Of a DNA stretch of 64,000 nucleotides, positions 14,123 to 45,569 are shown piece by piece. Each line of letters starts with the position of its first letter. Position 1 is the first letter of the stretch. Both the position numbers and the translations under genes were made by a program. The stretch lies in the NCBI GenBank assembly GCA_021324305.1, contig JAJPJI010000015.1:1-64000 (forward strand). Direction: 5' to 3'. This DNA comes from Gammaproteobacteria bacterium (GTDB lineage Bacteria > Pseudomonadota > Gammaproteobacteria > DSM-16500). Under the pieces are notes generated by a model, which worked only from the letters and a program-made list of their open reading frames with translations, did no database searches and had not been told where the DNA came from.

Positions 14123-14809
14123 ATGAACAAGACGAATACTTCCTTAACAAAAACCTGCTCCAGCTGCGGACAGCAAAAGCCCATGTCTGCCTTTCTTCAG
14201 CTTGCAGGCCCGCAAGGTACAACCTATGGGAGTGTTTGTGCCTCATGCCGTAAATCCAACGCCGAGAAGCCCTCTCTTCCAAAAGAACTGGAAGGCACGA
14301 CCACCAGTGGAACCTGGACCAAAATTGATTCCAAGACAAAAGTTAAAGCAGAAATCGACAAGCGTGAGTTACGCAAACAGGTCGAAGAAGACTATTTCGA
14401 AGAGCGCGATAAGAAAGATGAAAAAAAAATAAAGCGCACTGAAAAAATCTGGGGCATCGCCCAGGATGAAAAAAAGCGCATCGAAAAGCGCTCGTTTCTG
14501 GATAGCAGCAAAAAGCCGTCAAGTATCAGCTCTTCCATGGTTTTTGGCGGAGAAGAACAAAAAGCAAAAGCTGGAAAAATCGATTTTGCTACTGGGCCAG
14601 TCGAGAATACACGCGTCACAGGACAAGTAAAACTTACCCAATCACCCATCTTTCAGGCCTTCAAAAGCTGGCTTGGCAATGCGCCCATTGTTAGCACTTC
14701 TGAAAAAGCAGCACAGGCGCAAAAAAAATCGCCTAATAACAAGACAGTAGAAACAGAATCACTGGATGAATTCGCCAACAGAACCTGGGGCCCCAGATCA
14801 AGAAAATAG
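14123..14809 (+). CDS. Hypothetical protein with N-terminal zinc-ribbon-like cysteines
   Basis: 228 aa, not recognised. Two CxxC pairs (CSSCGQQKPMSAF at 12-24 and VCASCRKSN at 38-46) make a likely small zinc-binding domain of the kind that recognises nucleic acid or protein. The middle (75-140) is highly charged and probably a helical rod rich in Lys and Glu; the C-terminal half is polar and Ser/Lys-rich. No signal peptide or membrane segment. GAG lies near the ATG. It diverges from hfq and converges on icmQ. Confidence 0.65.
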   Translation: MNKTNTSLTKTCSSCGQQKPMSAFLQLAGPQGTTYGSVCASCRKSNAEKPSLPKELEGTTTSGTWTKIDSKTKVKAEIDKRELRKQVEEDYFEERDKKDEKKIKRTEKIWGIAQDEKKRIEKRSFLDSSKKPSSISSSMVFGGEEQKAKAGKIDFATGPVENTRVTGQVKLTQSPIFQAFKSWLGNAPIVSTSEKAAQAQKKSPNNKTVETESLDEFANRTWGPRSRK

Positions 14810-14918: not shown

Positions 14919-15500
14919 CTATTCCTTCCTGACCACTTGACCAGCCTCATTCACCGTGTATTCGTTTCCCTGATGGGTAAATGAAAACAGCCTGTCGAGA
15001 CGAAGAGAACCCTCTCTGATTTTTATCAGTGGGTTACCAACCTGATCTTTTTGCTGCTCAGTTCCCGCAGGCGGAGGGATGACATCGCTTTTCTTGATCG
15101 CGATAGTCAAAAATCCATGCTGGGCCTTGCTTGGCCTCGATCGGATGAATGCTTCAACAAAATTCTTGTCAGCATAAATTGGCCGATTAACACTATATTC
15201 ATAGAATACTGAAGGAGTTAGCATTTTTTGCCAGGTTTGAAAAACCAGACCCTGGGCATTAAAAATATATACGTAAACCAGAACCTCATCTTCAGCCAGC
15301 TGATCCGTCTTTTTCTCGATCTCTTGCTGGATTGCATTCAGGGCTTCTTCGACACGTTGCTTTAGCGCGTTCAGACGATCTCGTATAAAACGGAATTTGT
15401 CACCCACCTGAAATTTTTCACGAAGTTCCTGATCTTGCTGGATGGCATCAAGAACCATCTGCAGGATTTTATCTTTTTGTTCTTTATTGTCATTTGACAT
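14919..15500 (-). CDS. icmQ: Dot/Icm protein IcmQ
   Basis: 193 aa from the ATG used here (a TTG two codons earlier is possible; the ribosome site is weak). In Legionella, IcmQ is a cytoplasmic Dot/Icm component that binds IcmR, NAD+ and membranes. What matches: an amphipathic N-terminal helical domain (1-70) and a C-terminal domain with VYVYIFNAQG, WQKML, NRPIYADKNFVEAFIRSRPS, DQVGNPLIKIREG and FSFTHQGNEYTV, the same order and spacing I recall for IcmQ. It is preceded by a tiny gene in the icmR position. Unlike Legionella, it is not followed by icmP/icmO and lies 22 kb from icmTS. Identification is from pattern memory. Confidence 0.78.
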   Translation of the reverse strand: MSNDNKEQKDKILQMVLDAIQQDQELREKFQVGDKFRFIRDRLNALKQRVEEALNAIQQEIEKKTDQLAEDEVLVYVYIFNAQGLVFQTWQKMLTPSVFYEYSVNRPIYADKNFVEAFIRSRPSKAQHGFLTIAIKKSDVIPPPAGTEQQKDQVGNPLIKIREGSLRLDRLFSFTHQGNEYTVNEAGQVVRKE

Positions 15501-15549
15501 ATTCAACTACTTGATAAAAGCACAAATTAAATTATATATCAGGTCGAAG

Positions 15550-15771
15550 CTATGTAGCATGAGAAGAAGACTGTACAATTTTTCCACACTCTTCGGCTAT
15601 TTTGGTGAGATTTTCAGAAGTGTTTAATAAATATGATACTGAATTGTTCGGCGTTCCCGATTTATCTCCAGGTGCAGCATTAAGCAATCCAGTACCTAAA
15701 GCAGATGCCTGCTTGGCGATTTCAAGCAGAGTTGTTTTAATAGTGGCTGCCAAAACCGCATTATCAGTCAT
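15550..15771 (-). CDS. Small helical protein in the icmR position (candidate FIR)
   Basis: 73 aa, mostly predicted helix: residues 5-32 form an Ala/Leu-rich amphipathic helix (AATIKTTLLEIAKQASALG), then a Gly/Pro/Asn turn, then a second helix (LLNTSENLTKIAEECGKIV). GAGGTG lies about 8 bases before the ATG, and the stop is 49 bases from the icmQ start on the same strand. In Legionellales the gene just before icmQ encodes a fast-evolving functional homologue of IcmR (FIR), which chaperones IcmQ and shows little sequence similarity between genera. Position, size and helical hairpin fit; homology cannot be shown by eye. Confidence 0.6.
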   Translation of the reverse strand: MTDNAVLAATIKTTLLEIAKQASALGTGLLNAAPGDKSGTPNNSVSYLLNTSENLTKIAEECGKIVQSSSHAT

Positions 15772-15843
15772 TCAAAAATCACCTCGTTATAAGAATCTAC
15801 ACTCTATATAAGCATAGCATACGAACTCTAGCACCATGACACA

Positions 15844-37377: not shown

Positions 37378-37725
37378 TCAATCATACATCAGCTGATCGA
37401 GCGGCGCCGCCTCTCCGCGTGGTGTTCCTTTAATTAACTCATTCAGTACATCGGTCAGACACAACAACCTGAGTACATTGGGTGTTATGTCATCGAAAAT
37501 CACTTTCACACCCAATGCCGAGCCTTCTGCCTCTTCAAAAGTAACGCCAATGCCGTAACCCAGGCAAAGCGAGCTCAACTGATCAGCGCGCCGGGCAATA
37601 CCAGGAAGAAGGCCGGTAGGCGCAAAAACTTCTTCCATTGTCATTGGGCGGCCATTTAAAGTGAATTGAGCATTCATTTTTCTGGCGATTTTAATCATCA
37701 GTTGAGTCATATCGACGCTAGGCAT
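37378..37725 (-). CDS. icmS: Dot/Icm adaptor IcmS
   Basis: 115 aa, matching the family length. IcmS pairs with IcmW to bind effectors and deliver them to the coupling complex. Diagnostic stretches: ARKMNAQFTLNGRPMTMEEV, LLPGIARRADQLSSLCLGYG, GVKVIFDDITPNVLRLLCLT and the C-terminus GTPRGEAAPLDQLMYD. Starts two bases after the icmT stop; a GTG six codons upstream inside icmT is a weaker choice. In Legionella icmR and icmQ follow; here gpsA follows on the other strand. Confidence 0.95.
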   Translation of the reverse strand: MPSVDMTQLMIKIARKMNAQFTLNGRPMTMEEVFAPTGLLPGIARRADQLSSLCLGYGIGVTFEEAEGSALGVKVIFDDITPNVLRLLCLTDVLNELIKGTPRGEAAPLDQLMYD

Positions 37726-37727
37726 AC

Positions 37728-37970
37728 TTAATTTTTCCACCAAGGTTGAGCGATCTTGCGAGGGCCTGCGATATAAGAACGCAGCCAGCGCAAAAACACG
37801 GCAACAGTAAATCCAAATCGTTCAAGCAAGCTAAAAAACACCGTTGCGATAACAGCAAAAATAAAAGTCCATAAACGAATATGAAACAAAAGAATAAGCA
37901 ATGGAAATGTTGCCCTGTAATCAATTATAAAAAATCTGACATTTCTTGCTGAATCGCGCCAATTCGCCAT
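37728..37970 (-). CDS. icmT: Dot/Icm protein IcmT
   Basis: 80 aa inner-membrane component. NWRDSARNVRFFIIDYRATF, FHIRLWTFIFAV, FTVAVFLRWLRSYIAGPRK and the end QPWWKN match IcmT; two hydrophobic helices lie at about 22-50. AGGG lies about 9 bases before the ATG. Coupled to icmS and divergent from dotD. Confidence 0.94.
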   Translation of the reverse strand: MANWRDSARNVRFFIIDYRATFPLLILLFHIRLWTFIFAVIATVFFSLLERFGFTVAVFLRWLRSYIAGPRKIAQPWWKN

Positions 37971-43969: not shown

Positions 43970-44590
43970 ATGTCTTTTATGTCAAACAATGTAATAAAAT
44001 TAATGATATGTTCAATCGCATTAGTGTGCATGGGTAATAGTGCTGGTTATGCTCAGTCATTTTTTGGCTTCGGCAGTCAGCAAACGACAACCACACCCTC
44101 TCCTGTTCCTGCTCCACCCCAGGGGCCGCCAAAAAGCAATATTCTGTCTCCTGAAGAATTCAAAAATGCGGTCAACGCCCAGGGACAGCAAAACCTGAAT
44201 GATCTGTCACAGCAATTCAATGCACAATTAAAAAAATCACCCGCACCCGTACCGGCAGCGCCGATCAAGCCAGGTGCCACGCCGCCAGCGCCAGCTGCCA
44301 GTGAGAACGCCGCCAATCCGCCGCCTATTACTCAGCCCCCCGGCTCGACAGAAAATCCGGTGACTTCAGCGGCGCCGCAACCCGCAGCAGCGCCGGCAGC
44401 CTCATCCACATACTCAATCAAGCCCTCTGCCCCAACACCCGCCATTGGAACACAAGCACCGGCAGCTGCACCGCAGAAAAGCCAGATCTATACGGGTTTT
44501 GTAGGAGTCGGCAATACAAATGGCAATACCAATAGCAGCACCAGCAATTCATCATCAGGCTCTAGCGGCGGATGGAATATCAAATATTAG
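43970..44590 (+). CDS. Pro/Ala-rich exported protein in the icm cluster (unassigned)
   Basis: 206 aa. Signal peptide (IKLMICSIALVCMGNSAGYA), short SFFGFGSQQTT, then a long low-complexity region rich in Pro, Ala, Gln and Thr (about 30-170) and a Gly/Ser/Asn tail ending GGWNIKY. A central LSPEEFKNAVNAQGQQNLND segment could be a short helix. It is 37 bases before icmX on the same strand and divergent from icmV. I cannot match it to a named Icm protein. It could be a periplasmic spacer or a split-off N-terminal part of icmX. Confidence 0.75.
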   Translation: MSFMSNNVIKLMICSIALVCMGNSAGYAQSFFGFGSQQTTTTPSPVPAPPQGPPKSNILSPEEFKNAVNAQGQQNLNDLSQQFNAQLKKSPAPVPAAPIKPGATPPAPAASENAANPPPITQPPGSTENPVTSAAPQPAAAPAASSTYSIKPSAPTPAIGTQAPAAAPQKSQIYTGFVGVGNTNGNTNSSTSNSSSGSSGGWNIKY

Positions 44591-44627: not shown

Positions 44628-45569
44628 ATGCGGTTAGGTCAAGTTAAAAAGTTCATTGTGCTTCTTGGAGCAGCATCCACTCTCAGCATTGTCAGCATTT
44701 CCAATCTTAGTGCACAAAACAGTGATCAGTATTTACAGCAAATCGCGCAAAACACAGCTGGAATTCTGCAAGATGTGAATAATCTTCCGACATATTTACA
44801 GAATGCAGCAGTACTGGTTCTTTCACTGATAAATCCTGACACATCTCAGGCCACATTGAATATGACAAACCAGTTCCCTCCTCTGGGTACTTATCTTACT
44901 ACACAAACCGCACCCCTTAGCTACGCGACTTCCTTAAACACAGACTTGTTTGACAATGACGGCAATAACGTTTTCAACAGTAATAACGGTAAAAGCAACA
45001 GCGGCTCCGTTCCATCCAATCTCTGGTATCAGAATGATCTTGCGAATACAACTCTGCTAGGCGCATATCCCCTGCCGCCAGCACAGGATATACGTATACA
45101 AAACAAACTCATACAGGCAGCTCAATTACCCTATAACTACATTCGTAATGCTTCTGCCCTTAACATCTTTCACAAGGTACCGGATCCGGGCTGGAAACAG
45201 AGTGACGCCAAAACCCGATATCAGAGTTATTACAATGTCGTGATGTCTGTTGAATCGTTTGATGCATATATATTGGGCAGCCATTATGCAGATATCACCC
45301 AATTCACACCCTTGCAAAATCAACTGATCACCCAGGCTACCGATCAAACTAACTGGTTTAAGCAGGTTGCTTCTGAAAATATCGGGTCTGTTATCCGGCA
45401 AATTCTTCTTTATGAATCACAGAATTTTGTTTTGCTTACGCAATTGCTTCAGGCACAAAAACAGGCTGTCGTGGCCCAGGCAATGACAAATTCATTATTG
45501 ATCGCGATAAACCAGATGAATGAAAATGTCATGGTTTCCAACGCACAGGGAGTCAAGCCGCAGTCATGA
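44628..45569 (+). CDS. icmX: Dot/Icm periplasmic protein IcmX
   Basis: 313 aa. Signal peptide (KKFIVLLGAASTLSIVSISN), then QNSDQYLQQIAQNTAGILQD, a central Asn/Ser-rich insert around 105-130, and a C-terminal helical domain (KTRYQSYYNVVMSVESFDAY, IRQILLYESQNFVLLTQLLQ). The layout matches IcmX but it is shorter than the Legionella protein. AAGGAG lies 8 bases before the ATG. Followed 9 bases later by icmW. Secreted or periplasmic; needed for intracellular growth in Legionella. Confidence 0.85.
   Translation: MRLGQVKKFIVLLGAASTLSIVSISNLSAQNSDQYLQQIAQNTAGILQDVNNLPTYLQNAAVLVLSLINPDTSQATLNMTNQFPPLGTYLTTQTAPLSYATSLNTDLFDNDGNNVFNSNNGKSNSGSVPSNLWYQNDLANTTLLGAYPLPPAQDIRIQNKLIQAAQLPYNYIRNASALNIFHKVPDPGWKQSDAKTRYQSYYNVVMSVESFDAYILGSHYADITQFTPLQNQLITQATDQTNWFKQVASENIGSVIRQILLYESQNFVLLTQLLQAQKQAVVAQAMTNSLLIAINQMNENVMVSNAQGVKPQS

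Follow-up and report, generated by a model that had tools for sequence, protein, structure and literature searches.

Does the small gene that lies directly upstream of icmQ in a gammaproteobacterial contig encode a partner of IcmQ, as icmR does in Legionella pneumophila? The question is raised by a stretch of 64,000 nucleotides (positions 1 to 64,000 of contig JAJPJI010000015.1, assembly GCA_021324305.1; hereafter the window), in which an open reading frame (ORF) of 73 amino acids (aa) precedes icmQ on the minus strand. According to passages of PMC8528123, the icmR position is the one directly upstream of icmQ. The 73-aa product is very probably an IcmQ partner, as judged by homology, constant linkage, co-occurrence, selection, natural fusions with IcmQ and a bundle model of a fused homologue. 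The preferred reading, with a probability of roughly 0.88, is that it is a dedicated IcmR-like partner whose helical hairpin would close a bundle with IcmQ and keep IcmQ soluble. It is treated below as a candidate FIR (functional homologue of IcmR) with predicted binding to IcmQ, and is not filed as an established FIR.

IcmQ and the conserved gene upstream of it

On sequence grounds the larger ORF is IcmQ. The initial annotation had called the 195-aa product IcmQ-like, and a profile search bore this out: Pfam family PF09475 (Dot_icm_IcmQ) matched at 73 bits (E 2.8e-20) and passed its gathering cut-off of 25. A PDB search with the single sequence found L. pneumophila IcmQ (4eyy_Q, E 7.9e-17), a family profile of IcmQ found the same chain at E 5e-25, and in a structural comparison made with the fold of a homologue the top match was again 4EYY, L. 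pneumophila IcmQ. With the NCBI equivalog for IcmQ, TIGR02527, the protein scored 71.7 bits against a cut-off of 99.1, and it is not filed under that model. The likelier start of icmQ is the ATG at 15500, two codons past the TTG, which gives a protein of 193 aa. Pore formation and binding of nicotinamide adenine dinucleotide are properties of L. pneumophila IcmQ.

The candidate FIR gene lies directly upstream on the same strand; its ATG start follows a good ribosome-binding site, and it stops 49 bases ahead of the icmQ ATG (43 ahead of the TTG). The initial annotation had placed this ORF in the icmR position, and its length, strand and coordinates were confirmed. Its product matched nothing in Pfam or NCBIfam. 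Weak, scattered Pfam matches among its relatives (best E 0.0022, to a fungal domain, in 5 of 29 members) were rejected as chance. In the PDB, both the single sequence and the family profile matched mostly designed helical or coiled-coil proteins, and the profile also matched two weak natural proteins (E 0.43 and 1.3). These matches fit a helical hairpin and show no kinship. IcmR, present in the PDB set according to the title of 4EYY, was not among the sequence matches of the single protein or of the profile.

Conservation was followed in 56 genomes, the window genome included. IcmQ is present in 30 of these, 29 of which belong to the window's own family, probably the Aquicella group (GTDB DSM-16500) in view of the table in PMC11338181. 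Every one of the 29 (the window's own genome among them) has a homologue of the candidate FIR gene immediately 5' of icmQ. A thirtieth genome of the family (G056), outside the alignment of the 29 homologues (A1), also possesses both genes in this arrangement, and over the whole family IcmQ occurs in 30 of 36 genomes. Five residues are invariant in A1: L25, L29, P34, Y47 and L48 in the numbering of the window protein. The profile made from A1 recovers its 29 members by construction; in the remaining 27 of the 56 genomes it found nothing convincing (next best E 0.038), nor did it match in G054, a genome of another family in which IcmQ is present. A scan of genome contigs with the alignment yielded 27 loci, namely 6 fused, 20 separate and L087, a locus of a different lineage in which the small ORF upstream of icmQ is unrelated; the scan with the single protein as query detected no relative.

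The ratio of nonsynonymous to synonymous substitution (dN/dS) of the candidate FIR gene was estimable in three of six chosen pairs and came to 0.10, 0.15 and 0.09, with synonymous sites near saturation. Such values indicate a constrained gene under purifying selection. Because all 29 genomes have a homologue at this position and dN/dS is low, the 73-aa ORF is, by comparison of sequences, a real conserved gene and more than a chance ORF.

Three of the six family genomes without IcmQ (G004, G031 and G033) retain icmS, and neither icmQ nor the candidate FIR gene was found in them, through joint loss or missing sequence. Assembly incompleteness may account for some of the IcmQ-less genomes; G033 is rated 98% complete. 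In G022 (L029), icmQ is broken over two frames downstream of an intact candidate FIR gene, by decay or assembly error.

Natural fusions of the candidate FIR with IcmQ

The best evidence that the small protein partners IcmQ comes from genomes in which the two are one protein. A single stop-free frame covers both in 6 of the 30 genomes (G005, G018, G025, G030, G032 and G034) and likewise in the named records L085, L069, L088, L063, L062 and L064. In L069 and L085 there is no ATG, GTG or TTG from the YL of the small protein to the LR that closes the first IcmQ helix, and the other four fusions have two to five such codons in that interval. L063 (strain BBSC-SA01) was sequenced from a single cell and comes from the soil of a strawberry farm (PMC7453286). 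Among the open-access literature matches listed (titles, abstract starts and passages), there was no description of such fusions or of this candidate FIR; the initial annotation had suggested that the latter might be undescribed.

It is extremely unlikely that these frames are sequencing or assembly errors in which a stop codon was dropped. By their record titles five of the six fused genomes are metagenome assemblies, but the three fused genomes of genus g8, one of them single-cell, are separate records and agree with each other. Moreover, both parts stay in frame and conserved, and two of the six fusions have no start codon at all for a full-length IcmQ.

A conserved neighbour with another role, connected with mlaA or the envelope and joined to IcmQ through chance loss of a stop codon, is likewise a highly improbable explanation. 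While mlaA is the commonest upstream neighbour, the upstream gene varies among genera and icmQ is downstream in 29 of 29 genomes. The fusion partner is IcmQ in 6 of 6 cases, and with the A1 profile the small gene was not found in any genome of the 56-genome sample that lacks icmQ.

In the IcmQ tree, a weak one with 6 of 29 inner branches starred, the fused state requires at least four changes. Approximately unbiased (AU) tests did not clearly reject a single clade of all six fusions (p 0.054), nor did they reject the three g8 fusions grouped with G018 (p 0.38) or with G025 (p 0.17). A clade of the three g8 fusions with G005 was rejected (p 0.001). Because of this rejection, and because group codes place G005 in genus g1 amid 13 genomes with separate genes, the fusion probably arose at least twice. 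The longest IcmQ end branches belong to the fused proteins of G025 (1.67) and G005 (1.39); that of G018 is 0.99 and the median is 0.46.

Predicted bundle: releasable chaperone or permanent subunit

In an AlphaFold2 model of a natural fusion (predicted local distance difference test 95, predicted template modelling score 0.84), the small protein folds as a helical hairpin and, together with the N-terminal hairpin of IcmQ, completes a four-helix bundle; the initial annotation had described the small protein as helical. In L062, about four residues (64-67) are predicted to link the FIR helices to those of IcmQ. Among the matches listed for the bundle model, the IcmR chain of 4EYY does not occur. 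In L. pneumophila, IcmR engages IcmQ through the N-terminal helices of the latter, and the complex is a bundle of partner and IcmQ helices.

Given the linkage, the fusions and the four-helix-bundle model, the small protein probably works like a FIR. The 73-aa gene would encode the dedicated IcmQ partner of the family, acting as IcmR does. Its two helices would form a hairpin packed on the two N-terminal helices of IcmQ, closing the four-helix bundle, and the self-associating, membrane-active IcmQ would be kept in soluble form for use by the Dot/Icm machine. Both genes probably share one transcript, and the proteins would be made side by side; in some relatives they form a single polypeptide. 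For proteins from separate genes, binding is suggested indirectly by the six natural fusions and the bundle model, and a chaperone function is suggested by analogy with IcmR.

For the Dot/Icm machine it is still to be settled whether IcmR and its stand-ins are chaperones that leave or permanent subunits. The natural fusions are directly relevant to this question, because two of them lack a start codon for a separate full-length IcmQ. A permanent structural subunit is a live alternative, since a fusion holds the pair side by side at 1:1, an arrangement ill-suited to a partner that must leave. This is a sharper form of the preferred explanation and compatible with it: two genes would supply one four-helix domain, and the bundle would never open. 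Fusions in probably at least two lineages, the predicted linker of roughly four residues and the similar divergence of both proteins within a genus (see below) argue for such permanence. However, the hairpin could swing away even when fused, and the long end branches of the fused G025 and G005 IcmQs mean that their function may have shifted. Passages of PMC8528123 and PMC12754634 also have L. pneumophila IcmR blocking the self-association of IcmQ and so preventing dimers or polymers, which fits a releasable partner. It is therefore proposed tentatively, at somewhat less than even odds, that the partner is the second half of an obligatory four-helix IcmQ domain rather than a releasable chaperone, made permanent by fusion in several lineages. 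If true, IcmQ would work in all Dot/Icm systems as the IcmR-IcmQ complex and not as the free protein.

Divergence and comparison with known systems

Divergence was compared in 22 genomes with separate genes (231 pairs), and within genus in 13 genomes (78 pairs). Mean pairwise identity over all genera is 43.8% for the candidate FIR versus 49.1% for IcmQ, and within genus 53.7% versus 54.8%. Between genera the candidate FIR may fall clearly behind IcmQ in conservation, as between the window and L012 with 32% versus 50%. The candidate FIR thus diverges somewhat more than IcmQ between genera and about equally within a genus. The initial annotation had assumed that each genus has a FIR of its own, and this did not hold: the candidate FIR can be recognised in 12 of the family's genera, and the fast species-level divergence relative to IcmQ that is typical of FIRs, although not a defining trait, was not observed. 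A partner gene recognisable over 12 genera gives an alignment deep enough for modelling the pair, contrary to the expectation that such partners vary too much to compare.

The pair resembles the L. pneumophila IcmR-IcmQ pair (4EYY) in several respects. IcmQ has N-terminal helices and a C-terminal mixed domain, the gene for a small helical protein is located directly 5' of icmQ, and two partner helices and two IcmQ helices form a bundle, which here is a prediction. Unlike L. pneumophila IcmR, to which no sequence similarity was found, the candidate FIR gene does not lie between icmS and icmQ and has merged with icmQ in some relatives. As with the FIR genes of other Legionella species, such as L. 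antarctica in the passages of PMC8528123, a non-homologous gene stands in the icmR position with the same proposed job. Those FIRs are hypervariable between species according to the same passages, whereas the candidate FIR is common to 12 genera and keeps pace with IcmQ within a genus. Coxiella and Rickettsiella, as described in passages of PMC11338181, are similar in that IcmQ is present, IcmR is absent and another protein is found instead.

The upstream position in other families

A class-wide sample of 369 genomes contains IcmQ in 29, of which 26 lie in 17 other families. Upstream ORFs and the positions of icmT and icmS were counted by eye in these loci (L092 was unread and L105 starts inside the region). 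Upstream of icmQ, each of the 25 readable loci among the 26 carries a small ORF (57-217 aa), which overlaps icmQ or ends at most about 170 bases from its start; such an ORF alone is weak evidence of a partner. The A1 profile had no match in the other-family loci (best E 0.053, away from the upstream position). This type of FIR appears, from its sequence distribution, to be confined to one family, other families having others, as is expected for FIRs.

Four of the 26 loci (L101, L103, L108 and L109, from four other families) have IcmQ frames of 256-268 aa with a long N-terminal extension. These extensions may be further, unrelated partner fusions. They are not claimed as such, as no FIR is recognisable in them by sequence and all four loci have a small upstream ORF. 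In G054 (L089, 806-1459), a 217-aa ORF between icmS and icmQ contains the internal repeat EKKLVDWDTDKIEDNVAEDxRKSDSKKTTSAELKDSKQS.

The rest of the Dot/Icm system

The genome carries a Dot/Icm system. Between 37.4 and 46.0 kb of the window lie icmT, icmS, dotD, dotC, dotB, dotA, icmV and icmW. DotD, DotB, DotA, IcmT, IcmV and IcmW score over their NCBIfam cut-offs and IcmS was identified by Pfam; the putative DotC was named from a Pfam T4SS_TraI match beside DotD and DotB. In the expected place of icmX, a 313-aa ORF (44628-45569) was named by no model. Just upstream of it is a proline-rich ORF of 206 aa with a signal-like start (43970-44590, plus strand) and no NCBIfam match.

The initial annotation had noted that the pair is detached from icmT-icmS and from icmP. 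Both statements are correct: icmS is about 21.6 kb away, and icmP, looked for elsewhere in the genome, is on another contig (C27). The candidate FIR gene does not occupy the place between icmS and icmQ that is typical of Legionella, although not a defining trait. The split is common in the family, because icmQ and icmS lie 4.5-26 kb apart or on different contigs and the gene upstream is mlaA or a methylase gene. Distances run from 4.5 kb (G015) through 14 kb (G003) and 21-22 kb (G006, G010 and G014) to 26 kb (G001), and in the remaining family genomes with both genes found they are on different contigs. The 1.5 kb upstream of icmQ in family genomes holds mlaA or the methylase gene and not icmS. 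The detachment had also been taken as a departure from Legionella and Coxiella; it is real here but not unique, since icmQ is preceded by icmT and icmS at 16 of the 24 judgeable loci from other families and is not at the other 8.

Surroundings of the locus

The features around the pair are given in Table 1. A methylase gene of SpoU/TrmL type, identified by eye, lies between mlaA and the pair in several other genera or takes the place of mlaA.

Table 1. Coordinates of the icmQ locus and of icmT-icmS in the window.
Feature	Position	Strand	Remarks
icmQ	14919..15506	-	195 aa from TTG; PF09475, 4eyy_Q
Gap, candidate FIR stop to icmQ TTG	15507..15549	-	43 bases
Candidate FIR (functional homologue of IcmR)	15550..15771	-	73 aa; predicted to be a helical hairpin; around the turn a conserved motif, ALGTGLLNAAPGDKSGTPNNSVSYL in the window
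Ribosome-binding site of candidate FIR gene	15779..15785	-	gaggtga
Extended -10-like element	15807..15819	-	TGCTATGCTTATA; 36-48 bases upstream of candidate FIR start
mlaA	15844..16986	-	Upstream neighbour; not an obligatory part
icmS	37378..37743	-	PF12608; ~21.6 kb from icmQ
icmT	37728..37970	-	NF038220

The likeness of TGCTATGCTTATA to an extended -10 element suggests that the FIR-icmQ pair may have its own promoter. The element was picked out by eye, and 6 of the 27 relatives shown (L002, L003, L005, L009, L011 and L012) carry an identical one ahead of the FIR gene. A scan with the sigma-70 consensus found no promoter upstream of the candidate FIR gene, and with two mismatches allowed TGCTATGCTTATA occurs 2 times in the window versus 2.2 expected, no more rarely than by chance.

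Convergent with icmQ is an ORF of 228 aa (14123-14809, plus strand) with two CxxC pairs (CSSCGQQKPMSAFLQ...CASC). It had no Pfam match over the cut-off and only a sub-threshold match in NCBIfam. Similar ORFs are found near icmQ in at least five loci (L010, L013, L016, L018 and L020).
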